Assembly: GCA_008501585.1 (NCBI GenBank)
Contig: QQUN01000002.1
Coordinates: forward strand, 1 to 58,861
DNA: 58,861 bases
Direction of reading: 5' to 3'
DNA from: Pseudomonadota bacterium
GTDB lineage: Bacteria > Pseudomonadota > Gammaproteobacteria > Burkholderiales > Rhodocyclaceae
The notes under the pieces are model-generated. The model did not search any database. It was not told where the DNA came from and saw only the letters and a list, made by a program, of their open reading frames with translations. The translations under genes and the position numbers were made by a program. Positions within the stretch are counted from its first letter, which is position 1, and every line of letters begins with the position of its first letter. Shown here piece after piece: positions 156 through 54,110 of this stretch.

Positions 156-1193
156 TCAGGCGATGGCGCGGCTGATAAAGACGATGATCAGCATGTAGCA
201 GGCGACAAAGATCGCTTCGCTGGACATCAGGGCGATGGGCTTCCAGCCCAGTTCGGCGAGCTTCTCGAGCGAGGTCTTCACGCCAAGGGCGGAGATCGAG
301 ATCACCAGGCACCAGCGCGACACGTCGGAGCTGATCGCCACGGCCTCGGCGGGCAGCCAGCCCATGCTGTTGGCGGCGGCCAGCAGCGCGAACACCACCA
401 GGAACAGCGGCAGGATGGGCGGTGCCTTGGTGCCGGCGGTTTCGGTCTGCTTGCGCTCCTTGTGGAAGGTCAGCGCCAGGATGACGACCACCGGCATCAG
501 CATGGCGACACGGAACATCTTCGACAGCGTGGCGGCGTCGCCCACCTCGGGCGAAATGATCAGGCCGGCGCCCACCACCTGGGCCACGTCGTGGATCGAG
601 CCGCCGAGAAACAGGCCGGCCTCGGCCGTGCTCATGCCGACCGTCTTGACCACCAGCGGGTAGAGCACCATCGCCACGGTCGAGAAGATCGCCACGCCGA
701 TCGCGGTGAGCAGGGTGTAGCGCTCGTTTTCGCGGGTCGAGGGCAGGGTGGCGGAGATGGCCATGGTGGCCGAGATGCCGCAGATGCCGGTACCGCCGCC
801 GGAGAGCAGGCCGAGCTTGCTCGGCAGGCCGAGGATGCGCGCCATCAGCAGGCCGAAGCCGATGGTGAAGCCGACCGCACCGACCAGTGCGGCCACGCCG
901 AGCAGGCCGAGGTCGCTTACGTCACTGGCGACGATACGCGCGCCGAGCAGGGCCACGCCGAAACGCACCAGCTTCTTGGCCGAGAACTCGATGCCCGGAA
1001 TGCACTTGTCGTTGTCCGAGAGGAAATGGAAGGCGATGCCGATCAGCAGTGCGTAGAGAAACTGCGGGCCGCCGTAGTGCTCCGACACGAAGGTGGCGGC
1101 CACGGCGATGACGGCGCACAGCAGGATGCCGGGCACCAGTTTGCGGGTGCCGGCAAACATGGCCGGCGGGGCGGCGGTGGTGGATGTGCTCAT
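156..1193 (-). CDS. YeiH/UPF0324-family membrane exporter (putative sulfate/sulfite exporter)
   Basis: A 345-residue, very hydrophobic protein with about ten predicted membrane segments and the family motif GGGTGICG in the middle ([18 protein letters not shown]). UPF0324/YeiH proteins recur beside sulfonate-degradation genes and are thought to export the sulfite or sulfate released by Xsc; that role is inferred, not proven. The ATG at 1193 was chosen because GGAG lies about 8 nt upstream and the longer reading frame adds only repeat-encoded low-complexity residues. It lies downstream of xsc1 and just upstream of thiC on the same strand, so an xsc1-yeiH-thiC transcript is likely. Confidence 0.8.
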
Positions 1194-1397: not shown

Positions 1398-3218
1398 TCA
1401 AACGTAGTCTTTGTACTTATCGAGGAATCGCACCGGCTTGGAGAGCGCATCGCGACGGAACGGATCGCCCAGCTCGCGAGTACACATGATCTCGATGATG
1501 GTGGTCTTGCCCTCGTTCATCTGCATGTCGATCGCCTTCTTGAGCGCCGGGCCCACATCCTCGAGCTTGTCGACCGTGATCCCCTCGGCACCCATGGCGC
1601 GGGCGATCTCGGCAAAGGACTGGTTGTCCAGCTCGCCGGCGACGAAGCGGCGGTTGTAGAAGTCCACCTGGTTCTTCTTCTCCGCGCCCCACTGACGGTT
1701 GTGGAAGACCACCGCCGTGACCGGGATGTTGTGACGCACGCAGGTCATCGTCTCCATCAGGCTCATGCCCCAGGCACCGTCACCGGCGTAAGAGACCGCC
1801 GGGCGATGCGGCGCGGCCACCTTGGCGCCGATGATGGTCGGGAACGCGTAACCGCAGTTGCCGAAGCTCATCGCCGCGAAGAAACTGCGCGGCTTCTCGA
1901 AGCGCAGATAGCTGTTGGCCACCGAGTTGATGTTGCCGATGTCGGTCGACACCATCACGTCTTCCGGCATCGCCTTCTCCAGCTCGCGCAGCACCTGGCG
2001 CGGATGCAGATAGTCGCCGCCCTGGAAGGTCTTCTCCTTCGCGTTCTCGTCGATCATGTCCAGGCTGAAGGGGTCACGCTCATGCGTCCACTCGTCCAGT
2101 TCCTTCTCCCACGCCGCCTTCTCGTTGGCGATGGTCGCCGCGCGCTCGGCCCGGTTCGCATCGCAAGCCAGCGCCTTGTCGGCCAGACGCGCGGTCAGCG
2201 CAATGGCTGCCGCCTTCGCATCGCCGCAGATACCCACCGAGATCTTCTTCACCAGGCCCAGCATCTTGTTGTCCGCATCGATCTGGATGATCTTGGCCTG
2301 CTTGGGCCAGTAATCCATGCCGTGCTGCGGCAGCGTACCGAAGGGGCCCAGGCGCGAGCCCAGCGCCACCACCACGTCCGCCTGCGCCATCAGCTTCATC
2401 GCCGCTTTGGAACCCTGATAGCCCAGCGGGCCGCACCACAGCGGGTGGCTGGCGGGGAAGGAATCGTTGTGCAGGTAGCTGTTCACCACCGGCGCGCCCA
2501 GCCGCTCGGCCAGCGCCTTGCACTCCTCGACCGCATCGGCCATCACCACGCCACCGCCCGAGATGATCACCGGGAACTTCGCCGTCGCCAGCAACTCCGC
2601 CGCCGCGTTCAGCGACTGCTCGCCGCCCGGGCCGCGATCCAGACGCGACGGCTTCGGAATCTCGCAAGTGATCTCGCCATAGAAATAGTCACGCGGGATG
2701 TTCAGCTGCGTCGGCCCCATCTCGCTCATCGCGCGGTCGAAGCAGCGGCCCGTGTACTCCGCCATCCGGGCCGGATGCGTCACATGGCCCTGGTACTTCG
2801 TGAACTCCTGGAACATCGGCAGCTGGTTACACTCCTGGAAACCGCCCAGGCCCATCGTGCCCGTGCCCGTCTCGGGGGTGACGATCACCACCGGCGTGTG
2901 CGCCCAGTAAGCGGCGGCAATGGCCGTCACGCAGTTCGAGATGCCCGGCCCGTTCTGGCCGATCACCACACCATGACGACCCGACACCCGCGCATAGCCA
3001 TCGGCCATGTGCGCCGCGCCCTGCTCATGCACCACCGGAATCAGGCGGATGCCCGCCGGCGCGAAGATATCCATCGCATCCATGAAGGCCGAACCCATGA
3101 TGCCGAACATGTCGGTCACCCCGTTGGAGACCATCGTCTCCACAAAGGCCTCCGAGGGCGTCATCTTGGTCGGGCCGGCGGGCACCGAACGGTTGGCTTG
3201 GGGGGTGTGATCGCTCAT
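1398..3218 (-). CDS. xsc: Sulfoacetaldehyde acetyltransferase, copy 1
   Basis: This 606-residue TPP-dependent enzyme is the desulfonation step of C2-sulfonate catabolism. It cleaves sulfoacetaldehyde with phosphate to acetyl phosphate and sulfite. It has the acetolactate-synthase-like three-domain plan. The TPP-activating glutamate is in HEQGAAHMADGYAR (Glu65), and the TPP/Mg motif begins GDGAWG at 479 and ends HNRQWG near 506-511. The ATG at 3218 has GGAGAGAGA upstream, and the long N-terminal extension of the open frame reads antisense through iclR1. The protein differs from copy 2 (51300-53120) at six residues, including H4Q and a changed LADKAL/LTGKDL patch. It is divergent from iclR1 and probably induced through it. 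Confidence 0.95.
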   Translation of the reverse strand: MSDHTPQANRSVPAGPTKMTPSEAFVETMVSNGVTDMFGIMGSAFMDAMDIFAPAGIRLIPVVHEQGAAHMADGYARVSGRHGVVIGQNGPGISNCVTAIAAAYWAHTPVVIVTPETGTGTMGLGGFQECNQLPMFQEFTKYQGHVTHPARMAEYTGRCFDRAMSEMGPTQLNIPRDYFYGEITCEIPKPSRLDRGPGGEQSLNAAAELLATAKFPVIISGGGVVMADAVEECKALAERLGAPVVNSYLHNDSFPASHPLWCGPLGYQGSKAAMKLMAQADVVVALGSRLGPFGTLPQHGMDYWPKQAKIIQIDADNKMLGLVKKISVGICGDAKAAAIALTARLADKALACDANRAERAATIANEKAAWEKELDEWTHERDPFSLDMIDENAKEKTFQGGDYLHPRQVLRELEKAMPEDVMVSTDIGNINSVANSYLRFEKPRSFFAAMSFGNCGYAFPTIIGAKVAAPHRPAVSYAGDGAWGMSLMETMTCVRHNIPVTAVVFHNRQWGAEKKNQVDFYNRRFVAGELDNQSFAEIARAMGAEGITVDKLEDVGPALKKAIDMQMNEGKTTIIEIMCTRELGDPFRRDALSKPVRFLDKYKDYV

Positions 3219-3386
3219 GATTGTCTCTCTCCGGGGTTTGGGGTTCTTCTCGTTAAACGATACGAAAGATTCCGAAAAACGAGATGTGCCTGAACTGTAG
3301 GCAGGAGAAGCCACGCCGTCAAGAGAAAAATTCAAAAAACGAAACGTATTGTCTTGATAACTGCAATTCACTATGATGGACTCACC
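3219..3386. promoter_or_regulatory. Divergent xsc1/iclR1 control region with two IclR-type operator sites
   Basis: Two copies of a shared palindrome-like element are visible. Site A is TAAACGATACGAAAG at 3254-3268 and site B is GAAACGTATTGTC at 3341-3353. Both match the palindrome GAAACGTATCGTTCC in the iseJ/iseR promoter. The whole 168-bp region is repeated upstream of xsc2 with a single mismatch. IclR-type control from this divergent promoter is inferred. Confidence 0.7.
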
Positions 3387-4208
3387 ATGAACACACCGAG
3401 CCCCACCGCCCCCACCGAGCTGCCGCGCATCGACGGCGACACGCCGACGCTGCGCCTGTTCGGCCTGCTCGAAGTGATCGCCGCCAAGGACCAGTTCTTC
3501 ACGCTGCACGGGCTGGTCGAAGAGACGGGGCTGCCCAAGCCCACGCTGCACCGCATGCTCCAGCAGCTCGAGGCGGCCGGCATGATCCAGAGGGACGGCG
3601 ACGGCCGCCAGTACAGCACCGGCGTGCGCCTGCGCCGCCTGGCCGAGAACCTGCTCTTGAACAACACCGTGCACGGCGCGCGCCACCTGGTGCTGCGCCG
3701 GCTGGTGGAAGAAGTGGGCGAGAGCTGCAACATCACCGCCTTCTCGGGCAGCGAGGTCTTGTATCTGGACCGCGTCGAGACCGCCGCGCCGCTGCGCTTC
3801 TATCTGCACCCCGGCTCACGCGTGCCGGCGCACTGCTCGGCCAGCGGCAAGCTCTTCCTCGCCCAGATGAGCCCGGCCCAACGCCGCCGCCTGCTCGCCC
3901 ATGTGCCGCTCGAGCGCTTCACCAACAAGACGCTGACCACGCTCGCGGCGCTCGAAGACGAGATCGAGACGGTCAAGCGCCAGGGCTATGCGCTGGACGA
4001 CGAAGAGTTCCTGCCCGGGCTGGTGTGCGCCGCGGTGCTGGTGCCCCGGCACAACGCCCGCTCGAACATGGGCATCGCCATCCAGGCACCGGTGATGCGT
4101 CTGGACCGCGAGAAGGTGATCGCGCGCCTGCCGGCACTCAAGCGCGCGGCCGCTGCGCTGGCCGACATCGAGGCACAGGCCGAGAAGGAATTGCAGCACA
4201 GCGCCTGA
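3387..4208 (+). CDS. IclR-family transcriptional regulator, copy 1
   Basis: A 273-residue regulator with an N-terminal winged helix-turn-helix (about residues 20-75, [20 protein letters not shown]). An IclR effector-binding domain follows, including [19 protein letters not shown]. It is divergent from xsc1, the arrangement typical of a pathway-specific activator or repressor of sulfonate degradation. The start is uncertain: ATG 3387 is used, but an in-frame TTG at 3354 would add 11 residues and overlap operator site B, and no strong ribosome site is seen. It differs from copy 2 by six residues. It may be co-transcribed with the downstream cobS-like gene. Confidence 0.88.
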
Positions 4209-4245
4209 GCGGGGGGAGGCTCTCCCGTTCGGGTGGACAACAGAC

Positions 4246-4267
4246 GCCGCGGGCAGAGACCCGCGGC
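4246..4267 (+). other. Perfect 8-bp hairpin between iclR1 and the cobS-like gene
   Basis: GCCGCGGG-CAGAGA-CCCGCGGC forms a perfect stem 25 nt before the cobS-like start. No T tract follows, so it may modulate read-through or mRNA stability rather than terminate. It lies right where homology to the second iclR copy ends. Confidence 0.5.
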
Positions 4268-4291
4268 GCGCAACCCGACATGGAGAGAGCC

Positions 4292-5269
4292 GTGGCAGAC
4301 AATGAAATGATCGCGCCGGACCAGCAAGTGTCCGTGCGTAGCGTGTTTGGTATCGATTCGGACCTGATGGTGCCGGCGTTCAGCGAACGCGACGACCATG
4401 TGCCGGAAATCGACGAGGCCTACCGCTTCAACCCCGACGTGACGCTGGCGATCCTCGCCGGCTTCACCCGCGACCGGCGCGTGATGGTGCAGGGCCTGCA
4501 CGGCACCGGCAAATCGACGCATATCGAACAGGTCGCCGCGCGCCTGAACTGGCCCTGCGTGCGGGTGAACCTCGACGGCCACATCAGCCGGCTCGACCTG
4601 GTCGGCAAAGACACCATCGTGGTGCGCGACGGCCTGCAGGTGACCGAGTTCCAGGAAGGCATCGTGCCCTGGGCGCTGCAACGCCCGGTGGCGATGATCT
4701 TCGACGAATACGACGCCGGCCGGCCGGACGTGATGTTTGTCATCCAGCGCATTCTCGAGCGCGACGGCAAGTTCACCCTGCTCGACCAGAACCGCGTGAT
4801 TCGCCCGCACAAGTACTTCCGCCTGTTTGCCACATCCAACACGGTGGGCCTGGGCAATCTGTCGGGCATGTACCACGGCACCCAGGTGCTCAACCATGCG
4901 CAGATCGACCGCTGGAACATCGTCGCCACGCTCAACTACCTGCCGCACGACGAAGAGGTGGCCATCGTTCTGGCGCGCGTGCCGGCCAAGAATTACGACA
5001 AGGGCCGCAAGCTGATCGCGCAGATGGTGCAGTTGGCCGATCTGACCCGCAAGGGCTTCGCCGCGGGCGACCTGTCCACGCTGATGTCGCCGCGCACGGT
5101 GATCACCTGGGCCGAGAACTGCGAGATCTTCCGCAACCCGGCGCTGGCCTTCCGCCTGTCCTTCCTCAACAAGTGCGACGAGGCCGAGCGCCCGATCGTG
5201 GCCGAGTACTACCAGCGCTGCTTCGGCGAGGAACTGGACGAATCGTGGATGCGCGAGGCGCAGGCGTGA
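4292..5269 (+). CDS. cobS: CobS-like AAA+ ATPase (cobaltochelatase small subunit family)
   Basis: This 325-residue MoxR-type AAA+ ATPase closely resembles aerobic cobaltochelatase CobS. Walker A is GLHGTGKST at 68-76, Walker B is in MIFDEYDAG around 135-143, and the CobS-typical stretches [13 protein letters not shown] and [13 protein letters not shown] are present. CobS and CobT form the ATPase that powers CobN in cobalamin synthesis, but no cobN or corrin gene is in the window. GTG 4292 is preferred because GGAGAGA lies 5 nt upstream; ATG 4280 would add four residues. The stop overlaps the next start by 4 nt (GTGA), so translation is coupled. The cupin/Lin0512 neighbours argue for another client than CobN. 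Confidence 0.88.
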
Positions 5270-7002
5270 ACACCGCGCAACAGCGCGCCAAGCGGCAGCA
5301 GAAGGTCGAAGAGCTGTGCGCCGCCACCTTGCGCGCACTGACCGGCGACGCCCAACTGCACTACCGCGGCCGGCGCCTGCACCGCGGCGCCCGGCCGCTG
5401 CCCATGCATGCGCCGCATCAGCGCGTGGACACCGACCTCGACGGCTTCGACGCCTGCCGTGCCGCGGCCGACGGCATGGCCCTGCGCCTGCTGTATTCCG
5501 ACCCGGATCTGCACCGCCGCCTGTGCCCGGCCGGCGGTGTCGAGCGGCTGGTGTTCGAGTGGCTGGAGCAACTGCGGGTCGAGACCATGGTGCCGGCCGA
5601 CATGCCCGGCATGGCCGATAACCTGGTGCACCGCTTCGAGGACTGGTCGCGCAACTTCTACCGCGAGGGGCTGACCGAAGGGCGGCTCGGCATCCTGCTA
5701 TACACCGTGGCGCAGATGGCCTGGTCGCGGCTGATGGCGCGGCAGGTGCTGGAGGAAACCGAGGACTACATCGAGGGCACCCGCGCCTCGCTGGTCGGCG
5801 TGCTCGGCACCCCGCTGGCTGGCATGCGCCGCCACCGCGACGACCAGGCCGAGTTCGCCCGACACGCGCTGGAAGTGGCGCGCGTGGTCGACGAGACCAT
5901 GCGCTCCGACCGCGCCGAGGCCGGCGGTGACGACAGCGCCCCCGAACCCGACGAGGATGACGAAGCCAAGAGCCGCTTCGCGCTGCTGCTCGACTTCGAC
6001 CCGGACGAGGGCGACGGCGACAACATCGCCGCCGCCACCACCGGCGACAGCAAGGTCTTCGAAGACGCCAAGCAGGCCTACCACGTCTACACCACGCGCT
6101 TCGACACCGAGGTGGCCGCCGGCACCCTGGTGCGCAAGGCCTTGCTGCGCGAATACCGCGAGCGGGTCGACAAGCGCATCAGCGAGCAGGGCATCAACCT
6201 GCCGCGCCTCGCGCGCATGCTCGGTGCGATTCTGGCGCAGCCGCAGCGCGACGGCTGGCTGTTTGGCCAGGAAGAAGGGCGCATCGACGGCGCGCGCCTG
6301 TCGCAGCTGATCAGCTCGCCCGCCGAACGCCGCCTGTTCCGGCAAGACCAGTACCTGCCCAAGGCCGACTGCGTGGTCGCCTTTCTGGTCGATTGCTCAG
6401 GGTCGATGAAGACCCATGCCGAGCCGGTGGCGATGATGATCGATCTGCTGATCCGCGCGCTCGAGATGGTCGGTGTGAGCACCGAGATGCTCGGCTTCAC
6501 CACCGGCGGGTGGAACGGCGGCCGGGCCGCCAAGGCGTGGATGAGCGAGGGCCGCCCGCCGCACCCCGGCCGGCTCAACGAAGTGACCCACATGGTGTTC
6601 AAGGAGGCCGACCGCAACTGGCGCCGCACCCGCATCGACATGATGGCCCTGCTCAAGCCCGACCTGTTCCGCGAAGGCATCGATGGCGAAGCCGTCGACT
6701 GGGCATGCAACCGGCTGCTCGCGCGCAGCGAGGCGCGGCGCATCCTCATCGTCATCTCCGATGGCTGCCCGGCCGACAGCGCCACCGGCCGCGCCAACGA
6801 CGAGTTCTATCTCGACAACCACCTCAAGGACGTGGTGGCCCGGCGCGAGGCGCAGGGCGCGGTGGAGATCCTCGGCCTCGGCGTGGGCCTCGACCTCAGC
6901 CCCTTCTACCGCCGCTGCCTGGCCACCGACATGAGCCAGGCGCTCGACAACGCGCTGTTCCAGGACATCGTGCAACTCATCGGCGGCCGGCACCGGCGCT
7001 GA
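5266..7002 (+). CDS. cobT: CobT-like VWA-domain protein (cobaltochelatase/AAA partner family)
   Basis: A 578-residue partner of the CobS-like ATPase. It has an N-terminal helical region, an acidic linker (about 215-265, rich in Asp and Glu) and a C-terminal von Willebrand A-type domain. The MIDAS-like DCSGS begins at Asp376, and the CobT-like [14 protein letters not shown] block lies near residue 505. CobS/CobT-type pairs, like NorQ/NorD or CbbQ/CbbO, remodel a third protein, often for metal or cofactor loading. The GTG start overlaps the cobS stop by 4 nt, and the stop overlaps a possible ATG of the cupin gene. Whether this pair serves a distant CobN or a local client cannot be told from sequence. 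Confidence 0.85.
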
Positions 7003-7031
7003 TGCCGACCCAAGAATCCACGGAGCGTTCC

Positions 7032-7406
7032 ATGCCCAATACCGTCATCGATTTTGCCGCCTGCACAGCCGACTGGACCGACAGCCGCCTGGCCGACCAG
7101 CCCGGCCGCGTGGTCGGCGGCGACCCGCAGCACCGCAACAAGCCCTGCTTCGAAAGCGCCGACGGCGCGCTCATTGCCGGCACCTGGACCAGCACCCCCG
7201 GCCGCTGGCATGCCTTCACCGATCGCGACGAATTCTGCGTCATCCTCGCCGGCCATTGCCGGCTGATTGCCGAAGACGGCACCGCCAAAAGCTTCAAGGC
7301 CGGCGACGCCTTCATGATCCCCAACGGCTTTCGCGGCTATTGGGAGGTGGTCGAAACCACCACCAAGCACTACGTCATCCGCAGCTACCCCGCCTCCAAG
7401 GACTGA
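7032..7406 (+). CDS. Small single-domain cupin protein
   Basis: A 124-residue protein with one cupin barrel of the Cupin_3/DUF861 type. The core is TSTPGRWHAFTDRDEFCVILAG followed by the second motif GDAFMIPNGFRGYW. The His and Glu in RWHAFTDRDEF are candidate metal ligands. ATG 7032 was chosen for its GGAG six nt upstream; an in-frame ATG at 7002 overlapping the cobT stop would add ten residues. It stands 3 nt before the first Lin0512 gene, in one tight operon with the CobST-like pair. The substrate is unknown. It may be an enzyme or a metal-binding helper of the operon. Confidence 0.75.
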   Translation: MPNTVIDFAACTADWTDSRLADQPGRVVGGDPQHRNKPCFESADGALIAGTWTSTPGRWHAFTDRDEFCVILAGHCRLIAEDGTAKSFKAGDAFMIPNGFRGYWEVVETTTKHYVIRSYPASKD

Positions 7407-7409
7407 ATC

Positions 7410-7763
7410 ATGGCCCTCAAGAAAATGGTGGTGCAGTTCGGCATGGGGACCTCGATCCGCAGCCGCAACTACACCCAGGCCGGCGTGCGCGCCATCCGCG
7501 ACGCGCTCTGGCACCACTCCCTCAACGTCGCCGACGCCTTCGGCTTCCCCCGCACCGCGATGGTGATCGACGCCGTCGTCGCCGTGCAGCGGCCCGACCT
7601 GGTCGACGAAGCCGAGCTGATCAAGGTCTTCCCCTACGGCCAGGTCAGCGTGCGCGTGATCGAAGGCGGCCTCGACGTGCCCAAGCCCAGCGGCGAGAGC
7701 ATCAGCGTCATCGCCAATGCCGCCATCACCGTTTCCTTCGACATGGAGGCCGCACATGACTGA
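7410..7763 (+). CDS. Lin0512-family protein A (diverged motif)
   Basis: This 117-residue protein belongs to the uncharacterised Lin0512 family, usually marked by an N-terminal GxGxDxHG motif. Here the corresponding stretch is GMGTSIRS (residues 11-18), so the family Asp is Ser15 and the last Gly is Ser18. The rest (TQAGVRAIRDAL, RVIEGGLDVP) follows the family. It starts 3 nt after the cupin stop and overlaps the next gene by 8 bp, so it is translationally coupled to paralogue B. No function is known for the family. Loss of the conserved residues suggests a structural or regulatory partner for paralogue B. Confidence 0.75.
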   Translation: MALKKMVVQFGMGTSIRSRNYTQAGVRAIRDALWHHSLNVADAFGFPRTAMVIDAVVAVQRPDLVDEAELIKVFPYGQVSVRVIEGGLDVPKPSGESISVIANAAITVSFDMEAAHD

Positions 7764-8127
7764 AAAACGCATCATCCTCGAAATGGGCACCGGAAACGAC
7801 CTCTACGGAGAGGACTACACCAAAGCCGCCTGCCGCGCCGTGCAAGACGCACTGCACCACTCCTCCATCCTGCTGTTTCGCAGCCTCGATATCGACCACC
7901 GCCAGATGCGCGTGCAGGTCACCATCGGCGTGCAAGAGCCCGGCAAAGTCGACACCGACGCCGTCGCCGACACCTTGCCGCGCGGCTACGCCGAAGTGAA
8001 GGCCGTCAAGGGCGGGCTGAACGTGCACGACCCCGAGCAGGGCACCACGCATGTCATCGCCACGGCGGCGGTGGAGGCGTTTGTGCCGCTGGCTGAGGGG
8101 GCGTGGCGGTTGAGTGAGGAGGGGTGA
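7756..8127 (+). CDS. Lin0512-family protein B (motif retained)
   Basis: A 123-residue paralogue of the preceding gene. It keeps the family motif as GTGNDLYG (residues 11-18, Asp15 present, Tyr where His is usual), followed by EDYTKAACRAVQDALHHSS and VKAVKGGLNVHDPE. Its ATG overlaps the end of paralogue A. Coupled expression and similar length suggest a heteromer. It is the last gene of the iclR1-cobS-cobT-cupin-lin0512A-lin0512B run. No clear terminator follows within the 152-bp gap to sugE, which reads towards it. The biochemical role is unknown. Confidence 0.75.
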   Translation: MTEKRIILEMGTGNDLYGEDYTKAACRAVQDALHHSSILLFRSLDIDHRQMRVQVTIGVQEPGKVDTDAVADTLPRGYAEVKAVKGGLNVHDPEQGTTHVIATAAVEAFVPLAEGAWRLSEEG

Positions 8128-12108: not shown

Positions 12109-12160
12109 ATACGACCAGCTGTTTTCAGGCCCTAGCAGCCACTCGATGATCTGTGGCGTC

Positions 12161-12186
12161 CGGCCGCTTCTGGCCGAAAGCGGCCG
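12161..12186. repeat. REP-like inverted repeat in 264-bp spacer
   Basis: CGGCCGCTT and AAGCGGCCG form a perfect 9-bp stem with an 8-nt loop. This element resembles dispersed intergenic palindromes of proteobacteria but is single in this window. The rest of the 12109-12372 gap holds no recognisable gene. Confidence 0.45.
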
Positions 12187-12372
12187 TTCTCGGAGCACCG
12201 GCCGCTGGCAGCGCCGTGGTGAGCATGGGTGCGGGTCGCAGTCCTTGCCGCGTTATGCGCGGCGGATCACATCGGCGCACAATGGCACTCTGGATGCGGC
12301 GCCCATCCGCGGTGGCCGCAATTGCGTCGCCGACGGTCGATGGCATGGCGCTGTGTTGGCCAGGAGATGTGG

Positions 12373-13581: not shown

Positions 13582-13612
13582 CGTACCGCCCAGACCCCGC
13601 ACCGAGCCCGCC

Positions 13613-14233: not shown

Positions 14234-14304
14234 GGCCTGCAATCTGCCCTGGCGACGCCTGTCGCACTGGCATCTCTCACATCGGTGATCTAGTAGTAGA
14301 AGCA

Positions 14305-14327
14305 GGCGCCCGGTGGTCTCGGGCGCC
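14305..14327 (+). terminator. GC-rich hairpin after the flavin reductase gene
   Basis: GGCGCCCG-GTGGTCT-CGGGCGCC is a perfect 8-bp stem. There is no T tract, so termination efficiency is doubtful. Confidence 0.4.
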
Positions 14328-14431
14328 GGCCTGATCGAGCCCATGACCATCGACCTCTGCGGCCCCTGGCCGTGCCCTCGACAGCGGTGGCGGACGCCCT
14401 GTCCGCGGCCGGATGACATGAGGAGAGCGAC

Positions 14432-41545: not shown

Positions 41546-42832
41546 TCAGCCGGGGGCCGGGATCAGGCCGAGCGACAGCCACGGGATGAAGGCGATGATC
41601 AGCCAGGAGATGATCAGGCCGGTCATGTACATCACCGCGAACTTCACCAGCTTGGAGTAGGGGATGCCGGTGACGCCGCTGGCCACGAACAGGTTGAGAC
41701 CGAAGGGCGGGGTGATGAAGCCGATGGCCGCGCCGACCAGGAAGATCACCGAGAAATGCACCGGATCGACGCCCGTGGCCACCGCGATGGGCGCCAGGAT
41801 GGGGGCGAAGATGACGGTCACCGGCAGGCTCTCGAGGATGCAGCCGGCCGCGAGCACGATGGCCATGCACACCAGCAGCACCACGATTTCGCCGTCGCCG
41901 AACCAGGCCACGAAGGCCTGCACCGTCTCCGCCGCACCGAGCAGGGCGAAGACCTGCTGCATGACGATGGAGATGGCGATCATCGGGGCGAGCATGCCGG
42001 TGAGCTGACCGGAGCGCAGCAGGATGTCGGGCAGCGCTTTCCACTTGATTTCGCGGGTGATCAGCAGGCCGGCGATGAGGCAGAAGCCTACCGTGATGGC
42101 CGCCGCTTCGGTGGGCGAGAAGATGCCCGAGTAGATGCCGAAGATGACGATGAAGATGGCGAAGAAGCCGAGGTAGGCGCTGCGTGCGGTGCGCAGCACG
42201 CGGCCCATGTCGAGCGGCGTGACCGAGCCCCAGCCGTGCTTGCGGCACATCCACCAGCACACGATCTGCATGGCGATCACCATCAGCGCACCTGGCAGGA
42301 TGCCGGCGACGAACAAGTCGGAGATCGACAGGTTCATCAGGAAGCCATACACGATGAAGATGATCGACGGCGGGATGATGATGCCCACCGTGCCGCCGGC
42401 GGCCGCGGTGGCGGCAGCGAAACGGCTGTCATAGCCGTCCTTTTCGAGCAGCGGGTGCATGATGCCGCCGATGGTGGCGGTGGTGGCCGAGTTGGAGCCC
42501 GAGATGGCCGCGAACAGCCCGCAGGAGCCGATGGTGGCCAGGCCGAGGCCGCCGCGCATCCAGCTCAGGCAGGCGTGGGCGAAGTTGGCCAGCCGGGTGG
42601 CGATGCCCGCCGCGGCGATCAGGTCGCCGGTGAGGATGAACAGCGGCAGTGATAGCAGGCCGAAGAAGTTGAGCCCTTCGAACAGGGTGACGCCGATGTT
42701 GGCCAGCGTGAAGTCGATGACCAGCGAGACGCCGGTAACCCACAGGCCGATGACGAGGAAGATCGGTACGCCGACCAGGAACAGGACGACGACGCCGAGC
42801 GATACGAGGGTGATGAGCAATGTCTGGTCCAT
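41546..42832 (-). CDS. iseM: TRAP transporter large permease (DctM), isethionate transporter candidate
   Basis: A 428-residue, twelve-helix TRAP large subunit: LPLFILTGDLIAAAGIATRLANFA, GSNSATTATIGGIMHPLLEKDGYD and IIIPPSIIFIVYGFL. ATG 42832 is preferred (GGAG 8 nt upstream) over one at 42850 that lies inside dctQ. It starts 4 nt after the dctQ stop. Neighbours iseJ, the IclR gene and xsc/pta indicate isethionate (or a related C2 sulfonate) as substrate; this is inferred from published IseKLM clusters. Confidence 0.88.
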   Translation of the reverse strand: MDQTLLITLVSLGVVVLFLVGVPIFLVIGLWVTGVSLVIDFTLANIGVTLFEGLNFFGLLSLPLFILTGDLIAAAGIATRLANFAHACLSWMRGGLGLATIGSCGLFAAISGSNSATTATIGGIMHPLLEKDGYDSRFAAATAAAGGTVGIIIPPSIIFIVYGFLMNLSISDLFVAGILPGALMVIAMQIVCWWMCRKHGWGSVTPLDMGRVLRTARSAYLGFFAIFIVIFGIYSGIFSPTEAAAITVGFCLIAGLLITREIKWKALPDILLRSGQLTGMLAPMIAISIVMQQVFALLGAAETVQAFVAWFGDGEIVVLLVCMAIVLAAGCILESLPVTVIFAPILAPIAVATGVDPVHFSVIFLVGAAIGFITPPFGLNLFVASGVTGIPYSKLVKFAVMYMTGLIISWLIIAFIPWLSLGLIPAPG

Positions 42833-42836
42833 GGTC

Positions 42837-43370
42837 TCAGTCTCCACCAATGGTCTGGATGTCGACCAGGAAGGGTTCGCCGCGGCGATAGCGGCCGATG
42901 TCCTGGATCAGGTTCTGCAGCGCGCGGAACATCAGCAGGCCCCAGCCGACCGGTGTGGCGAGGTAGAACCACCATTGCATGATGTTGTCGGTGCCCTGCA
43001 CGATGGCGAAGTTCATGTAGGCCAGCTGGGTCTGCTCGATGGTGAACCAGGCCACCATGGAGCCGAAGCCGATCCACAGGATGGCGTCCAGCCACATCAT
43101 GGCGAACTGCCAGCCGTAGGACATGCGCAGGCGGAACTCGTTGAAGACGAGATGGGTGCGCTTGTTGACGTTGTAGGCGCAACCGACCCAGGTCACCCAC
43201 AGGAACAGGTAGATCGGGATCGAGGAGCTCCAGGGAATCTGGGTGCTGAAGACGTAACGCTCGAAGACCGCGAACACAATGATCAGCGCCATGCTGGCGT
43301 AGGCGATCAGAATGAGCGTGCGCTCGGCGTGGCGGTCCAGCCACCGAAGTAGTGCCATCAGATAAGACAT
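42837..43370 (-). CDS. iseL: TRAP transporter small permease (DctQ), isethionate transporter candidate
   Basis: A 177-residue four-helix DctQ protein (VFERYVFSTQIPWSSSIPIYLFLWVTWVGCAYNVNKRTHL is the family region). It couples the binding protein to the large permease. It is tightly linked to dctM but separated from dctP by an intrinsic terminator hairpin at 43394-43427. Confidence 0.87.
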   Translation of the reverse strand: MSYLMALLRWLDRHAERTLILIAYASMALIIVFAVFERYVFSTQIPWSSSIPIYLFLWVTWVGCAYNVNKRTHLVFNEFRLRMSYGWQFAMMWLDAILWIGFGSMVAWFTIEQTQLAYMNFAIVQGTDNIMQWWFYLATPVGWGLLMFRALQNLIQDIGRYRRGEPFLVDIQTIGGD

Positions 43371-43393
43371 GAGGTGGCCTCCGAAGTCAGGGG

Positions 43394-43427
43394 AAAAAGC
43401 CCGCCCCGGTCTGCGCCGGGGCTGGGC
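43394..43427 (-). terminator. Intrinsic terminator between dctP and dctQ (attenuator)
   Basis: On the minus strand GCCC-A-GCCCCGG, loop CGCAGA, CCGGGGC-GGGC are followed by TTTTT: an 11-bp stem with one bulge and a U tract. It sits inside the TRAP operon and would lower permease expression relative to the binding protein. Confidence 0.82.
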
Positions 43428-43456
43428 AATGAGATGCGCAGTGACTCAGGCGCCGG

Positions 43457-44683
43457 TCAGGCGCTCTGCCACCAGCGGCGGGGCTTCACGTCGGCGACGG
43501 GCAGGTCCTTGGGGATCTCGCGCGCGATGGTGTAGATCTCCTTGTACACATCCTGGCCGCCGGACATCTTGTTGAGACGCTCGCGCCACTCCTCCCACGG
43601 CTTGGGGTTGTACTCGGGCGAGCACATCTTCTCGGCCTTGAGAATCTCGGCGTCGGAGAGCGTCGCGACGCGCACGCCGTTCTTGCCGAAGACGGTGTCC
43701 GGGCCCGGGTTGGGCACCGCGCCGACCACTTCGATCAGCGCACGTTCCTGCTCGCGCTGGGTGTATTGCTGTGCGTCGTAGGCCGTTTCCATGACGATGT
43801 CGCGCAGCGTCGAGGGCAGCTTCTCGAAGGTCTTGTTGTTCATTGCGGTGTGTTCGGTGCCGCAGAAGAACTTCAGATCCACCGCCTGCGACAGCACCGG
43901 CGACATGTTGGCGTAGGCGGCCGCGCCCATCCAGGTCTCGGCGCCGTCGATCAGGCCCTGCTTGAGGCCGTCGAGGGTCTCTTCCCAGGCGATCGGTACC
44001 GGGTTCAGGTTCATCAGCTGCATGGCGATGCGGCCGAGCTGGGTGCCGGTGACGCGGTTCTTGGTGCCAGCCAGCTCATCGATGCTGGTGATCAGCGGCT
44101 TGTCGGCGAACTTCTTGCCCAGCATCAGGCCGCGCAGTTCGCAGTGGGTGTAGAGGAACTGGATGTTGTGCAGCTTGCGCATCGGCTCGCGCAGCAGCTT
44201 CTCGCTCTTGGGGTGGTAGAAGAAGTGGTGCTGGGCCGCGCGCGACGGGAACATGTAGGCGAAGTCGAGCACGTTGTAATAGGGCGCCGAGCCGGCCGAG
44301 TTCTGCGTGCTGGCCGAGTAGATGTCCACGATGCCCTGCTGGGTCTTTTTCACGCAGTCGAGCTGGTTGCAGATCGCGTTGCTGCCGATGAACTCGATCT
44401 TCATCGCGCCGTTGCTGCGCTCTTCCAGTTGCTGGGCAAACCACAGCTGGCCCGATTCCTGGATCTTCAGGTTGGCTTCGTTGAAGCCGGAGGCGCCGAA
44501 CTTCAGCGTCACCAGCGGCGTGCCCTTGGCGCGGGCGTCGGCCGTCTGCGAGGCGGCCTGGGCCACGCTGCTGAGCGTCAGCGGGCCGGCGACGCTGGCC
44601 GCGGCGAAGGCGGTGGAGGTCAGGCCGTAGCGACTCGCAATGCGCAGGAATCCACGGCGATCGAGGGTGTTGTCGTTAGCCAT
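43457..44683 (-). CDS. iseK: TRAP transporter substrate-binding protein (DctP), isethionate-binding candidate
   Basis: A 408-residue DctP-family binding protein. It has a twin-arginine-like signal ([14 protein letters not shown], then a hydrophobic stretch ending SVAQAAS). The TRAP ligand-binding residue region is [32 protein letters not shown] 44683 is used with GGAG upstream. It reads just after iseJ on the same strand and before the attenuator and permease genes. Isethionate is the inferred ligand. Confidence 0.87.
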
Positions 44684-44754
44684 TTGAGTGTCTCCTCTGG
44701 GTGGCAGGGCGGGCATGATTGCCCTTGTGAAGCGTTTTTTAGGTACCGCGGTGG

Positions 44755-46350
44755 TCAGCGGTTGTCGGCCAGGATCATGTCGGCTGCCTTTTCAGCGATC
44801 ATGATCGTCGGCGCATTGGTGTTGCCCGAGACCAGCTCCGGCATGATCGAGGCGTCGACCACGCGCAGATTGCCCAGCCCGTGCACCTTAAGCCGTGCGT
44901 CGACCACCGCCATCGGGTCATTCCCCATCTTGCAGGTGCCGGCCGGGTGGTAAATCGACTGGCTGTAGCGGCGCGCGGCATCGAGCAGCTCGTCGTCGGT
45001 CTGGAACTGCCGGCCGGGCACGAACTCGTCGATGATGTGTTTCTTGAGCGAGGGCGCGTCGGCGATGGCGCGGGCCACCTTGATGCCGCCGATCACCACC
45101 GGGTGGTCGCGCTCGTCCGACAGGTAGTTGGGCTGGATCGCCGGGTATTCGAGCGCATCGGCCGAGCGGATGCGCACATGGCCGCGGCTGTACGGGCGCA
45201 ACTGGCACACCGACGAGGTAAAGGCCGAGAACGGATGCGCGCCTTCGCCCGGCTTGTCGGCCGACAGCGGCTGCATGTGGAACTGGATGTCGGGGCGGGT
45301 CACGCCCGGGCCCGAGCGGGTGAAGATCGTCACCTGGCTGGCGGCGAGGGTCAGCGGGCCGGTGCGGTTGACCATGTACTGCATGCCGATCCACAGCTTG
45401 TTGATCGGGTTGTTGACCTCGTCGTTGAGCGTGCGCTCGCGGGTCTTGAGCACCAGCCGTACCTGCAGGTGGTCCTGCAGGTTCTCGCCCACGCCGGGCA
45501 GGTCGTGATGCACCGCCACGCCGGCCTTTTGCAATACCTCGGCCGGGCCGACGCCGGAGTTCTGCAGGATCTGCGGCGAACCGATGGCACCGGAAGCGAG
45601 GATGACCTCGGCGCGGGCACGCGCCTGACGCAGCTGGCCGCCCTGCATGAACTCCACGCCCACGGCGCGCTTGCCTTCGAACAGCACCCGGGTGGTCTGG
45701 GCGCGGGTCTCGACGATCAGGTTCGGCCGCTTGCGCGCCGGCTTCAGGAAGCCCTTGGCCGTGCTCCAGCGAAAGCCCTTGTGGGCGGTCTGCTGGAAAT
45801 AGCCGACACCTTCCTGCGTGGCGCCGTTGTAATCGTCGTTGTAGGGGATGCCGATATCCTTGGCTGCCGCAATGAAGTGGTCGGCGATCGGACGGCGCAG
45901 ACGCAGATCCGACACTTTCAGCGGGCCGCCGACACCGTGGTACTCGCTGGCGCCGCGTTCCTGGTCTTCGGACTTCTTGAAGTAGGGCAACACCTCGGCG
46001 AAGCTCCAGCCGTCGTTGCCCAGTTCGGCCCAGCGGTCGTAATCCTCGTGCTGGCCGCGCACATACAGCAGGCCGTTGAGCGAGCTGGAGCCGCCCAGCA
46101 CCTTGCCGCGCGGCCACTGCAGCTGGCGCCCGGCGATGCCGGCGTCGGCCTCGGTCTTGTAGCACCAGTCGTACTTCGGGTCGTGCATGGTCTTGAAGTA
46201 ACCGACCGGGATGTGGATCCACGGGTTGTTGTCCGGGCCGCCGGCCTCGAGCAGCAGGACGCGGTTGGCCGGGTCAGCGGACAGACGGTTGGCCAGTACG
46301 CAGCCGGCAGAGCCGGCACCGACCACAATGTAGTCAACGTCGATCGACAT
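44755..46350 (-). CDS. iseJ: GMC-family oxidoreductase, isethionate dehydrogenase candidate
   Basis: A 531-residue FAD enzyme of the choline dehydrogenase group. It has a dinucleotide fold GAGSAG at 11-16, GMC signature 1 ([26 protein letters not shown]), signature 2 ([15 protein letters not shown]) and the C-terminal active-site His in [10 protein letters not shown]. Published isethionate clusters use such an enzyme (IseJ) to make sulfoacetaldehyde for Xsc. Its place between an IclR gene, a TRAP transporter and xsc/pta fits exactly. Choline or another alcohol remains possible from sequence alone. Confidence 0.85.
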
Positions 46351-46521
46351 GAATCTTGTCTCCGGGGGGCTCGGCCAATGACAGCGTGGTGTCCTGCCGA
46401 TGTTGTTTATAAATGAAACGTATCGTTCCAATAAATCCTTGAATGCACTATTGTGGCAGTCACATGAAAAGCCAAGCGCTATTCGCACTTGAGGCCGAAA
46501 CTGAAACGGAAGTCGCTTGAT
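46351..46521. promoter_or_regulatory. iseJ/iseR divergent promoter with operator palindrome
   Basis: GAAACGTATCGTTCC at 46415-46429 is a 15-bp palindrome-like site whose core (AACGATACG on the other strand) recurs in both xsc promoters. It lies about 65 bp upstream of the iseJ start. Binding by the IclR-type proteins is inferred. Confidence 0.7.
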
Positions 46522-49363: not shown

Positions 49364-50122
49364 TTACTGAAGCGCAGCGAGAGCCGAGGCGATCAGGCTC
49401 AGGCCGATCAGGATCAGCACCGTGAAGGCGATGCGCCGCATCACCGTCGGCGGCAGTGGCGGCGGGTAGCGGCGGCCGGCGAAGGCGGCGGCGGTGACCA
49501 GCACGAAGGCGAAGGCGGTGAGTAGCCAGACCTCGGCGGTCAGCCCGCCCTGGATACCGACGAACACCGTGCGGCTGGCCGAGGTGAAGGTGAACACCAG
49601 CAGCAGCATGCTGCGCACCGCGGGCAGCGCCATCGGCTGGCGGTAGAAGTGGAAGATCACCGGCGGCCCGGCCATGCCGAACAGGCCGCCGAACAGGCCG
49701 GCAAGGAAGCCGCTGGCCAGGAAGCTGCGGTTGGGTGAGCGTGTCGGCAGCTGCGTGGGGCGCAGCGCAAAGACGATGCCGCTGTAGGCAATGACGACGC
49801 CGAGCAGCAGCTTGAGGGCCGTGGCGGCGACGGCGCTGAGGTAGTCGAGCAGCAGCACGCCGAGCACGATGGCCGGCACCACGCCGATCAGCACCGCCCG
49901 GGCGGCCGGCCAGTCGATCAGGTGCAGTTTGCCGGGCAGGGCCACGGCGCTGTTGGTCAGCGCCATCAGGCTGACCACCGCGGCCACCACGGGCAGCGGC
50001 GCCAGGTCGAAGCCGCTCGCCGCCCCCATCACGATCATGCCCAGCCCGAAGCCGGTGACGGTCTGGAAATAAGTGCCGACGGCAAAGAAGGCCAGCAGGG
50101 CGATGAGGGCGGGATCGGGCAT
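49364..50122 (-). CDS. TauE/SafE-family sulfite exporter
   Basis: A 252-residue membrane protein with about eight helices and the family repeats (FFAVGTYFQTVTGFGLGMIVMGAA; SGFLAGLFGGLFGMAGPPVIFHF). TauE/SafE members export sulfite or sulfoacetate during sulfonate breakdown. It begins 4 nt after the pta stop and is the distal gene of an xsc2-pta-exporter operon. It differs in family from the YeiH-type exporter beside xsc1. Confidence 0.85.
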   Translation of the reverse strand: MPDPALIALLAFFAVGTYFQTVTGFGLGMIVMGAASGFDLAPLPVVAAVVSLMALTNSAVALPGKLHLIDWPAARAVLIGVVPAIVLGVLLLDYLSAVAATALKLLLGVVIAYSGIVFALRPTQLPTRSPNRSFLASGFLAGLFGGLFGMAGPPVIFHFYRQPMALPAVRSMLLLVFTFTSASRTVFVGIQGGLTAEVWLLTAFAFVLVTAAAFAGRRYPPPLPPTVMRRIAFTVLILIGLSLIASALAALQ

Positions 50123-50126: not shown

Positions 50127-51134
50127 TCAGCTGCCGGCCGGGCGGTGGCCCTGCACCACGGTCACCGCGATCACGTGGAACACATCCTCGGCGCTGCAAC
50201 CGCGCGACAGATCGTTGGCCGGCAGGCTCAGACCCTGCATCAGCGGGCCGATGGCCACCGCGCCGCCGACCCGTTCGGCCAGCTTGTAGCCGATGTTGCC
50301 GGCTTCGAGATTGGGGAAGATCAGCACGTTGGCCTTGCCCTTGACCTGAGAGTCCGGCAGCTTGCGGTTGGCGATTTCGGCCACGATGGCGGCGTCCAGT
50401 TGCACGTCTTCGTCGATGGCCATGTCGGGGCGCTGCGCCTTGACCCGGCGTGAGGCCTCGACCACCTTGTCGACCGCGGCGTGCTTGGCGCTGCCGCGCG
50501 TGGAGAACGATAGCATCGCTACGCGCGGTTCTTCCATCAACAGGTCGCGCGCCGAATCGGCGGCGGCCATGGCAATCTCCGACAGCTCCTCGGCGTTCGG
50601 ATCGACCACCAGCCCGCAGTCGGAGAAGATCAGCCCGCCCTTGAGCGAGTGGAAGGGCTCGCACAGCATCATCAGGAAGAAGCTGGACACCAGCTTGAAG
50701 CCCGGTTTGACGCCGAGGATCTGGATCGCCGCCCGGACCACATCGCCGGTGGTGTGCACCGCGCCCGACACGGTGCCGTCGGCGTGGCCGGCCTTGACCA
50801 GCAGGTTGGCGCAGATCAGCGGCTGGGCGGCCTGCTCGGCGGCCTGCTCGCGCGTCATGCCCTTGTGGCGGCGCAGTTCAAACAAAGTATCAACCAGCTC
50901 GGGCATCAGCGGCGAGGTGGCCGGATCGACGAAGTCGATGCCGTCGAGCGGCAGGCCTTCCCTGGCGGCGAGCGCTTCGGCGGCGGCGCGGCTGCCGACC
51001 AGGATGATACGGGCGATGCCCTGCTGGGTGGCACGCACGGCGGCGGCCAGGATCCGGGCGTCGTCGCCTTCGGAGAGGGCGATGCGGCCCGGCTTGGCGC
51101 GGGCCTGCTCGATGATGCGATTGAGTGCTTTCAT
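50127..51134 (-). CDS. pta: Phosphate acetyltransferase (short form)
   Basis: A 335-residue PTA_PTB-family enzyme converting acetyl phosphate from Xsc into acetyl-CoA. Family stretches include GRIALSEGDDARILAA, CANLLVKAGHADGTVSGAVHTTGDVVRAAIQILG and FPNLEAGNIGYKLAER. It lacks the N-terminal DRTGG region of long Pta, as in other sulfonate operons. ATG 51134 follows GGAG closely. It stands after xsc2 but behind an intrinsic terminator, so its level is probably set below xsc2. Confidence 0.95.
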   Translation of the reverse strand: MKALNRIIEQARAKPGRIALSEGDDARILAAAVRATQQGIARIILVGSRAAAEALAAREGLPLDGIDFVDPATSPLMPELVDTLFELRRHKGMTREQAAEQAAQPLICANLLVKAGHADGTVSGAVHTTGDVVRAAIQILGVKPGFKLVSSFFLMMLCEPFHSLKGGLIFSDCGLVVDPNAEELSEIAMAAADSARDLLMEEPRVAMLSFSTRGSAKHAAVDKVVEASRRVKAQRPDMAIDEDVQLDAAIVAEIANRKLPDSQVKGKANVLIFPNLEAGNIGYKLAERVGGAVAIGPLMQGLSLPANDLSRGCSAEDVFHVIAVTVVQGHRPAGS

Positions 51135-51150
51135 GCGTCGATGCTCCTGC

Positions 51151-51182
51151 GCCGGCGGGCGGGGGTGGCCCCGTCCGCCGGC
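51151..51182 (-). other. GC-rich hairpin in the pta leader
   Basis: GCCGGCGG...CCGCCGGC with inner GGGG/CCCC pairs lies immediately upstream of the pta ribosome site on the minus strand. It may protect a processed pta message or modulate its translation. Confidence 0.5.
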
Positions 51183-51183
51183 C

Positions 51184-51234
51184 AAAAAAGAAAGCCGGAA
51201 CGAGACGCATCGGGGGATGATGGCTCGTTCCGGC
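51184..51234 (-). terminator. Intrinsic terminator between xsc2 and pta
   Basis: On the minus strand GCCGGAACGAG and CTCGTTCCGGC pair perfectly over 11 bp with a 19-nt loop that itself holds CATC/GATG. The stem is followed by TTTCTTTTTT. It lies 66 nt after the xsc2 stop and would partially uncouple pta and the exporter from xsc2. Confidence 0.82.
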
Positions 51235-51299
51235 AAAGCCTCGATCCGTTATGCGAGGGACGGACGAGGCGGGAGGCGGGTTGCAGTTCCCTGAAAGCC

Positions 51300-53120: not shown

Positions 53121-53288
53121 GATTGTCTCTCTCCGGGGTTTGGGGTTCTTCTCGTTAAACGATACGAAAGATTCCGAAAAACGAGATGTGCCTGAACTGT
53201 AGGCAGGAGATGCCACGCCGTCAAGAGAAAAATTCAAAAAACGAAACGTATTGTCTTGATAACTGCAATTCACTATGATGGACTCACC
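53121..53288. promoter_or_regulatory. Divergent xsc2/iclR2 control region, copy of the xsc1 region
   Basis: It is identical to 3219-3386 apart from one base. It carries operator-like sites at 53156-53170 (TAAACGATACGAAAG) and 53243-53255 (GAAACGTATTGTC). The near-perfect conservation of non-coding sequence exceeds that of the flanking genes. Confidence 0.7.
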
Positions 53289-54110
53289 ATGAACGCACCG
53301 AGCCCCACCGCCCCGACCGAGCTGCCGCGCATCGACGGCGACACGCCGACGCTGCGCCTGTTCGGCCTGCTCGAAGTGATCGCCGCCAAGGACCAGTTCT
53401 TCACGCTGCACGGGCTGGTCGAAGAGACCGCGCTCCCGAAGCCCACGCTGCACCGCATGCTCCAGCAGCTCGAGGCGGCCGGCATGATCCAGCGCGACGG
53501 CGACGGCCGTCAGTACAGCACCGGCGTGCGCCTGCGCCGCCTGGCCGAGAACCTGCTCTTGAACAACACCGTGCACGGCGCGCGCCACCTGGTGCTGCGC
53601 CGGCTGGTCGAAGAAGTGGGCGAGAGCTGCAACATCACCGCCTTCTCGGGCAGCGAGGTCTTGTATCTGGACCGCGTCGAGACGGCCGCACCGCTGCGCT
53701 TCTACCTGCACCCCGGCTCACGCGTGCCGGCGCACTGCTCCGCCAGCGGCAAGCTCTTCCTCGCGCAGATGAGCCCGGCCCAACGCCGCCGCCTGCTCGC
53801 CCATGTGCCGCTCGAGCGCTTCACCAACAAGACGCTGACCACGCTCGCGGCGCTCGAAGAAGAGATCGAGACGGTCAAGCGCCAGGGCTATGCGCTGGAC
53901 GACGAAGAATTCCTGCCCGGGCTGGTGTGCGCCGCGGTGCTGGTGCCCCGACACAACGCCCGCTCGAACATGGGCATCGCCATTCAGGCACCGGTGATGC
54001 GTCTGGACCGGGAGAAGGTGCTCGCGCAGCTGCCGGCACTCAAGCGCGCCGCCGAGGCGCTGGCCGACATCGAGGCGCAGGCCGAGAAAGAACTGCAGCA
54101 CAGCGCCTGA
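53289..54110 (+). CDS. IclR-family transcriptional regulator, copy 2
   Basis: A 273-residue protein differing from copy 1 at six positions: T3A, G-to-A in the HTH (ETALPKPT) and a cluster near the C-terminus. The divergent arrangement with xsc2 is the same. The single change in the HTH is near but not in the recognition helix, so both proteins probably bind the same sites. A strong terminator follows here, unlike copy 1, which may read into the cobS-like gene. Confidence 0.88.
   Translation: MNAPSPTAPTELPRIDGDTPTLRLFGLLEVIAAKDQFFTLHGLVEETALPKPTLHRMLQQLEAAGMIQRDGDGRQYSTGVRLRRLAENLLLNNTVHGARHLVLRRLVEEVGESCNITAFSGSEVLYLDRVETAAPLRFYLHPGSRVPAHCSASGKLFLAQMSPAQRRRLLAHVPLERFTNKTLTTLAALEEEIETVKRQGYALDDEEFLPGLVCAAVLVPRHNARSNMGIAIQAPVMRLDREKVLAQLPALKRAAEALADIEAQAEKELQHSA

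Follow-up and report, generated by a model that had tools for sequence, protein, structure and literature searches.

Two published studies state that pairs formed by a MoxR-type AAA+ ATPase and a von Willebrand factor A (VWA) partner have clients such as nitric oxide reductase, fumarate reductase and Rubisco, and present the metal ion-dependent adhesion site (MIDAS) of such partners as the site that binds a client residue (PMC13036017, PMC9976466); one of them gives the MIDAS motif as DxSxS-T-D (PMC13036017). A gene pair of this general type was analysed here in a 58,861-nucleotide stretch of contig QQUN01000002.1 (assembly GCA_008501585.1; the whole stretch is referred to below as the window) from a Pseudomonadota bacterium assigned to the Rhodocyclaceae. 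The pair encodes a CobS-like, MoxR-type AAA+ ATPase of 325 amino acids (4292..5269, + strand) and a CobT-like VWA protein of about 578 amino acids (5266..7002, + strand), and is located near xsc1 (1398..3218, – strand), the gene for a sulfoacetaldehyde acetyltransferase (Xsc) that passes the TIGR03457 equivalog cut-off (1091.8 bits versus 676.4). Although databases label the pair as a cobalt inserter of vitamin B12 synthesis, it probably serves the sulfonate-degrading machinery instead. Our preferred proposal, to which we give about an even chance, is that the pair is a dedicated MoxR-AAA+/VWA remodeller of the sulfoacetaldehyde branch of C2-sulfonate catabolism with Xsc as its likeliest client, that it is not a cobaltochelatase here, and that the associated Lin0512 and cupin proteins are accessories.

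Linkage of the pair to Xsc genes

The surroundings of the pair were compared across 92 loci, comprising the window, five plasmid loci, six loci from relatives and the best 80 of at least 380 scan matches. These loci were picked by CobT similarity and not by their neighbours, and they are not mutually independent; two further loci, L013 and L014, stand outside the count. The genera represented include Azoarcus, Thauera, Aromatoleum, Halomonas, Paraburkholderia, Caballeronia, Cupriavidus, Janthinobacterium, Photobacterium and Oceanisphaera; one of the loci, L096, comes from C. necator A5-1. CobS was encoded beside CobT in 91 of the 92 loci, and directly upstream, within 400 bases, in 90. Among the 50 loci whose sequence extends for 9 kb or more in both directions (full-flank loci, from which the window is excluded because it lies near a contig end), Xsc was encoded within 10 kb of the pair in 44. 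On the basis of these two counts, the arrangement of CobS, CobT and Xsc is not due to chance, and the tie to sulfonate metabolism suggested in a preliminary description of this DNA is borne out through Xsc.

Other genes within 10 kb of the pair at the full-flank loci encoded Pta (37 loci), a TauY-like FAD oxidoreductase (39 loci) and a GMC oxidoreductase (22 loci), while sulfoacetate genes (SauS plus a CoA ligase) were present in seven. SauS of one representative passed the NCBI model (768.6 bits, cut-off 600), and the names TauX and TauY, which we assume to apply, are in keeping with SnoaL-like and DAO domains. Where Xsc was not encoded close by, i.e. in six full-flank loci, taurine genes (five loci) or sulfoacetate genes (one locus) were present, and all six genomes encode Xsc elsewhere. 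Genes for taurine, isethionate or sulfoacetate use vary around the pair, and Xsc is the shared enzyme. Furthermore, in 48 pair-bearing genomes (representing 48 of 50 loci chosen among the 80 scan loci), an Xsc match was found in 39, above the cut-off in 38. The clearest operon was observed in G203, a genome from another order of the class, where xsc, a phosphate acetyl/butyryl transferase gene (pta), cobS, cobT and one lin0512 gene occur on a single strand.

The converse comparison started from genomes encoding Xsc. In a sample of 369 genomes of the class, Xsc was detected above the cut-off in 21, including the genome studied here. CobT was searched for in the 20 others and in G120 and G204; G120, with a partial Xsc below the cut-off and no CobT, lies outside the 21. 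The linked Xsc proteins (21 rows from 17 loci) fell into one clade of a quick Xsc tree, for which L027 gave no full-length Xsc; G790 is not among the genomes covered. A CobT of the lineage described below was present in five of the seven sampled genomes with an Xsc of this clade, our own included, as opposed to none of 14 others (Fisher's test 0.001, kinship not corrected); one of the five is unsure, since the placement of the CobT of L204 is unsure.

Lineage, motifs and predicted fold of the pair

The CobN family (PF02514) had no match in the genome under study, which is 99.99% complete and holds one CobS_N match and one CobT match, and the genes annotated in the window included no visible corrin gene. 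The absence of cobN asserted by the preliminary description therefore extends from the window to the genome. CobN was likewise not found in any of seven further genomes that carry the pair and share the genus, family or order of this one (G001, G004, G006, G009, G010, G045 and G284). Judging from this gene content, the pair is not a cobaltochelatase in this genome.

The CobS-like protein (Pfam CobS_N and AAA_5) shares 62–88% identity with nine other orphan CobS proteins and narrowly missed the CobS equivalog cut-off (TIGR01650, 551.0 versus 558.55 bits), and the CobT-like protein (Pfam CobT and CobT_C) missed that of CobT by far (TIGR01651, 300.6 versus 759.05 bits), with about 31–34% identity to CobT of Sinorhizobium and Cereibacter. 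In a CobT tree of 37 rows, the 25 rows that we assigned to the sulfonate context were placed on one side of a branch with a support of 100/100, and the other side held eight unassigned rows besides three annotated CobTs and one linked to urease. With 36 rows, a second, quick tree split off 22 context rows with a support of 100 and placed two additions, the CobT of G413 and a second CobT copy of G318, on the non-context side. Xsc was read on the stretch itself for 20 of the 25 context rows, the others being L018 (a cut contig), L080, L086, L202 and L204, and the genomes of the last four carry Xsc elsewhere. L204 and L020 are on long branches and their placement is unsure, that of L204 being very long in both trees; the frameshifted CobT of L011 was excluded from the protein alignments and L088 is missing from the CobT tree. 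As far as these sequences allow, the pair is a distinct, widespread lineage, apart from the three annotated cobaltochelatase CobTs.

Sequence alignment of the CobS-like proteins showed the presence of GLHGTGKST and IFDEYDAG, which we take to be the Walker A and B motifs. In the CobT-like proteins, the MIDAS residues D380, S382, S384, T417 and D503 were invariant in all 34 sequences compared (numbering follows the translation of 5254–6999, with T417 and D503 assigned by position). Both an AAA+ ATPase and a VWA domain with the DxSxS-T-D motif are thus present, so that, by motif content, the pair carries the parts of a MoxR AAA+/VWA machine. The closest fold to the VWA domain in the single-chain model of the CobT-like protein, in a library that returned no CobT among the first 50 matches, was the NorD VWA domain of NorQD.

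Candidate clients and alternative explanations

In the window, cobT is followed on the + strand by genes for a Cupin_3 protein (7032..7406, Pfam Cupin_3 2.8e-21), Lin0512-A (7410..7763, PF09585 7.2e-29) and Lin0512-B (7756..8127, PF09585 2.2e-34). Both small proteins passed the PF09585 gathering cut-off of 23.4 (100.6 bits for A and 118.4 for B), and the TIGR02058 cut-off of 56.85 was passed by B (57.2) and not by A (47.6). The model of Lin0512-B (mean pLDDT 83.5) matches 3c8l, a structure solved without a function. Naming a Lin0512 reaction from the fold was abandoned, as after 3c8l the matches to FtsZ, chorismate mutase and RidA-like proteins were too weak to name one. Across the 92 loci, the gene for CobT was followed by Lin0512 genes in the same orientation in 29, with A and B paired in every case, and the pair occurred without Lin0512 in 63 (four of the 92 are cut less than 1.2 kb after CobT). 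The cupin was detected in seven loci and not in the other 85, in a sulfonate setting that was alike. With these frequencies, Lin0512 and the cupin are unlikely to be the general client, and they are probably accessories rather than an obligate client.

The preliminary description had named a Lin0512 or cupin enzyme as the client, these being the only candidates it saw; the first claim is probably wrong, and the second overlooked Xsc, which is the more constant partner. None of the findings that it named as refuting its reading was made: the genome has no CobN, the phylogeny is separate, and Lin0512 genes are linked to the pair in 29 of the 92 loci.

Lin0512 also occurs apart from the pair. In the class sample, it was found above the cut-off in three of the 369 genomes, all three with Xsc, although in G318 it is on another contig and the Xsc there is of the unlinked clade. 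For family f241, which is part of the same phylum and which we take to be Rhodobacteraceae, 12 of 28 loci have their tandem Lin0512 pair at most about 9.5 kb away from cobO (L191, L192, L195, L196, L200, L201, L227, L229, L235, L238, L240 and L241, often together with CobN, CobW or BluB) and 10 of 28 have it that close to CobN, compared with none of 20 arbitrary control regions for either (Fisher's test 0.0004 and 0.002; the genomes are related and some loci are cut by contig ends). One control region holds a CobS/CobT pair. The CobN, CobW, CobO and BluB proteins of representative f241 loci passed the NCBI cut-offs, and no CobS/CobT was found beside the Lin0512 pair in the fetched stretch of any of the 28 loci. 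Among 80 genomes of f241, Xsc was present in 17 of 20 with a Lin0512 pair versus 29 of 60 without (Fisher's test 0.0035, or 0.011 when restricted to genomes of 3.5 Mb or more; kinship not corrected). Since some part of a cobaltochelatase-type machine is present in either context, this correlation suggests that Lin0512 may be an accessory of CobST-type machines generally. A tie of Lin0512 to thiamine-diphosphate enzymes in general was rejected (4 of 28 f241 loci versus 1 of 20 controls, Fisher's test 0.30). Outside f241, such an enzyme was encoded near Lin0512 in 4 of 11 loci, all four in family f234, presumably Bradyrhizobium; L182, L183, L184 and L190 of that family each have one Lin0512 gene close to that of an acetolactate synthase-like enzyme.

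By analogy with MoxR/VWA pairs whose clients are known, the Xsc module, and most likely Xsc itself, is proposed as the client of the pair. The CobS-like protein would form a ring that hydrolyses ATP, and the VWA domain of the CobT-like protein would dock on the client through the MIDAS metal site. In the MoxR AAA+/VWA kind, such a ring is hexameric and takes up a VWA finger in its pore. As the likeliest client, Xsc might be reactivated, conformationally opened or loaded with a cofactor, and Lin0512-A/B and, in fewer lineages, the cupin could act as accessory subunits or adaptors. The formation of a complex, the identity of the client and the kind of remodelling are all inferred, as are the roles of Lin0512 and the cupin. 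The linkage to Xsc, the differing upstream routes, the G203 operon, the separate lineage, the single Xsc clade and its share of context CobTs, the absence of CobN from this and many other pair-bearing genomes, the MIDAS invariance and the NorD-like fold support the assignment to the Xsc module. A bolder version, which we put forward tentatively, is that the pair is an activase or repair machine for the thiamine-diphosphate enzyme Xsc that evolved from a cobaltochelatase-type CobS/CobT, with Lin0512-A/B as a general CobST accessory, whose partner would be CobN in Rhodobacteraceae-like genomes but the Xsc-linked pair in Beta- and Gammaproteobacteria.

Several observations weigh against Xsc as the client. 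The nearest pathway gene was that for Pta in 20 of the 50 full-flank loci, as often as that for Xsc (20 of 50). Nine of the 48 pair-bearing genomes had no Xsc match; in eight of these the contig starts within about 420 bases of cobS (L029 among them has an Xsc fragment). The ninth, L070, is without Xsc despite 4.7 kb of sequence ahead of cobS. The pair is also patchy, being present in 7 of the 61 nearest genomes, our own included. G102 (96% complete) and G243 (87%), whose Xsc belongs to the linked clade, had no detectable CobT, so that Xsc does not strictly need the pair, and all 14 Xsc genomes outside the clade were without a CobT of the context lineage. A scan of the Xsc positions peculiar to the linked proteins revealed no clear acidic docking residue, and a conserved acidic residue for MIDAS docking, specific to linked Xsc, was dropped as a candidate. 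By sequence, the nearest solved relatives are the cobaltochelatase CobT and CobS, the N-terminal domain of CobT included, and a CobN-family protein is encoded in 18 of the 48 pair-bearing genomes as well as in G203, so that the pair may be linked to CobN in those genomes. The proposal of Xsc as client draws on gene context and analogy.

The last two sequence-based points would suit a genuine metal chelatase or metal inserter, acting with a chelatase large subunit supplied in trans or on a metalloenzyme of the pathway such as sulfite dehydrogenase. Homology to CobS and CobT spans most of the length of the two proteins, and the f241 Lin0512 pairs stand beside cobO and CobN; we nevertheless consider this explanation unlikely, as CobN was found neither in the nearly complete genome studied here nor in 30 of the 48 others, and as the CobT lineage is separate and both NCBI equivalog cut-offs were missed. 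There is a similarly small chance that the Lin0512 proteins, the cupin or both are the true enzymes, which the pair would load or remodel. The position of co-oriented Lin0512-A/B genes just 3' of cobT in 29 loci, the single Lin0512 gene that ends the G203 operon and the co-occurrence of Lin0512 with Xsc in f241 and in the class sample (with the reservation given for G318) agree with such a role, which is difficult to reconcile with the many loci of the same setting without Lin0512 or a detected cupin and with the f241 Lin0512 pairs, which have no CobS/CobT beside them.

It is equally doubtful that the pair serves an upstream enzyme, i.e. the TauX/TauY-like taurine dehydrogenase or the GMC isethionate dehydrogenase, in place of Xsc. 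The frequent TauY-like gene, which was the nearest pathway gene in eight of the full-flank loci, points in this direction, but six full-flank loci (L008, L037, L060, L076, L081 and L099) have Xsc and neither a TauY-like nor a GMC gene within 10 kb, and neither gene is part of the G203 operon. Least probable of all is hitch-hiking, i.e. the spread of an unrelated pair inside a mobile block of sulfonate genes. The window has two copies of the xsc-iclR block, the pair is patchy and five loci are on megaplasmids; conversely, the proteins are conserved with intact motifs across many genera, and the linkage to Xsc persists though gene order varies. A phage origin was discarded, as a search of viral contigs with six peptide patterns yielded no relative, and so was a defence system, for which the ATPase gave a weak IetA match alone. 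Many plasmids of enterobacteria and of Acinetobacter do carry weak CobT-like matches (933 records, none reaching 60% identity).

Should the assignment of the pair to sulfonate metabolism be correct, genes of many sulfonate degraders that are now modelled as cobaltochelatase subunits would be moved to it, correcting B12 predictions; Xsc, if it is the client, would represent a new target class for MoxR/VWA machines, and the Lin0512 family would gain its first testable role. In open-licence PMC text, no paper mentions lin0512 and none joins sulfoacetaldehyde acetyltransferase with cobaltochelatase or MoxR; among those open-licence PMC papers that share some of the terms, part of the matches, judged by title, included none on an Xsc-CobST link. 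One methanogen gene survey (PMC3087415) reportedly has sulfoacetaldehyde and CobS/CobT together, as a match of terms. To our knowledge, no thiamine-diphosphate enzyme has been described as the target of a MoxR/VWA ATPase.

Flanking genes and comparison with known systems

The tight five-gene run after xsc1 and iclR1 that the preliminary description had outlined was confirmed in its coordinates. xsc1 is divergent from iclR1 (3354..4208, + strand; Pfam IclR_C and HTH_IclR), which encodes an IclR-type regulator and is followed on the + strand by the genes for the CobS-like, CobT-like, cupin, Lin0512-A and Lin0512-B proteins. The cobT-like gene is predicted to start at GTG 5266, with a 4-base GTGA overlap with cobS; gaps of 29 and 3 bases separate cobT from the cupin gene and the latter from that of Lin0512-A, and the two lin0512 genes overlap by 8 bases. 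The 83 bases between the end of iclR1 (4208) and cobS hold no terminator-like site by consensus scan, in line with the preliminary description, but the sequence at 4205–4295 folds as a strong hairpin (–48.3 kcal/mol), which qualifies that claim. This GC-rich hairpin (4218..4291, + strand; RNA fold and an alignment of five sequences) is largely kept in sequence in four close relatives, and its inner stem is kept in three of the four with a C-to-T change that still pairs. With no terminator-like site and yet a strong hairpin in the gap, transcriptional read-through from iclR1 into cobS is plausible from the sequence. On its other side, xsc1 adjoins a gene for a PF03601 (YeiH-type) membrane protein (156..1193, – strand; cluster c15 in 14 loci), a candidate sulfite/sulfate exporter.

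The duplication of iclR1 was also corroborated, as the xsc1-iclR1 block (1402–4252) is a near-copy of 51304–54153, with 96.1% identity over 2851 bases. The second block contains xsc2 (51300..53123, – strand) and iclR2 (53256..54110, + strand), whose proteins are 99% and 98% identical to those of xsc1 and iclR1, respectively. Further genes on the – strand encode Pta (50127..51236, Pfam PTA_PTB), a phosphate acetyltransferase for the step after Xsc, a TauE/SafE sulfite-exporter family protein (49364..50122, Pfam TauE), a GMC oxidoreductase (44755..46362, Pfam GMC_oxred) and the DctM and DctP proteins of a TRAP transporter (41546..44716, Pfam DctM and DctP). The GMC oxidoreductase, a candidate isethionate dehydrogenase by its presumed substrate, shares 81% identity with the representative of cluster c10, and its open reading frame extends further upstream than the coordinates given, the start not being fixed. 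This second set of genes would fit isethionate use. Behind iclR2, where cobST stands behind iclR1, a C5 cytosine methylase and an EcoRII-type restriction nuclease are encoded (54224–57562). Near-identical xsc copies were also observed in L008, L036 and L073, and such copies may be the reason why several contigs break just upstream of cobS. Among other neighbourhoods, L010 (Caballeronia pNK83, 11669–15910) has genes for a GTP-binding protein, an amidohydrolase and a sodium:solute symporter behind cobT on the opposite strand, and GTPase genes like that of L010 occur in several Paraburkholderia loci.

Compared with the cobaltochelatase CobN-CobS-CobT (9uka, 21vu and others), which inserts cobalt into hydrogenobyrinate diamide, the pair shares the homology of CobS and CobT, including the N-terminal domain of CobT, and the gene order cobS-cobT; it differs in the absence of CobN here, in a diverged CobT of a separate lineage and in the linkage to xsc. 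An orphan CobST likewise beside an unrelated metabolic enzyme is found on Pandoraea oxalativorans pPO70-1 (L014, 2219–9677), directly behind ureG in a urease cluster, and its CobT lies on the opposite side of the CobT tree from the Xsc-linked pair. Both small proteins are members of the Lin0512 family (PF09585, 3c8l), from which the present case is distinguished by tandem Lin0512-A/B genes joined to a CobST-type motor. NorQ/NorD resembles the pair as a MoxR AAA+ ATPase with a VWA partner carrying the DxSxS-T-D MIDAS, but its client is nitric oxide reductase, unlike the Xsc proposed here. With the Rubisco activase CbbQ/CbbO, of which CbbQ shows weak sequence similarity to the CobS-like protein (E about 4e-9), the pair would have in common, as an analogy, its proposed mode of action, i.e. 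the ATP-driven reactivation of one metabolic enzyme.

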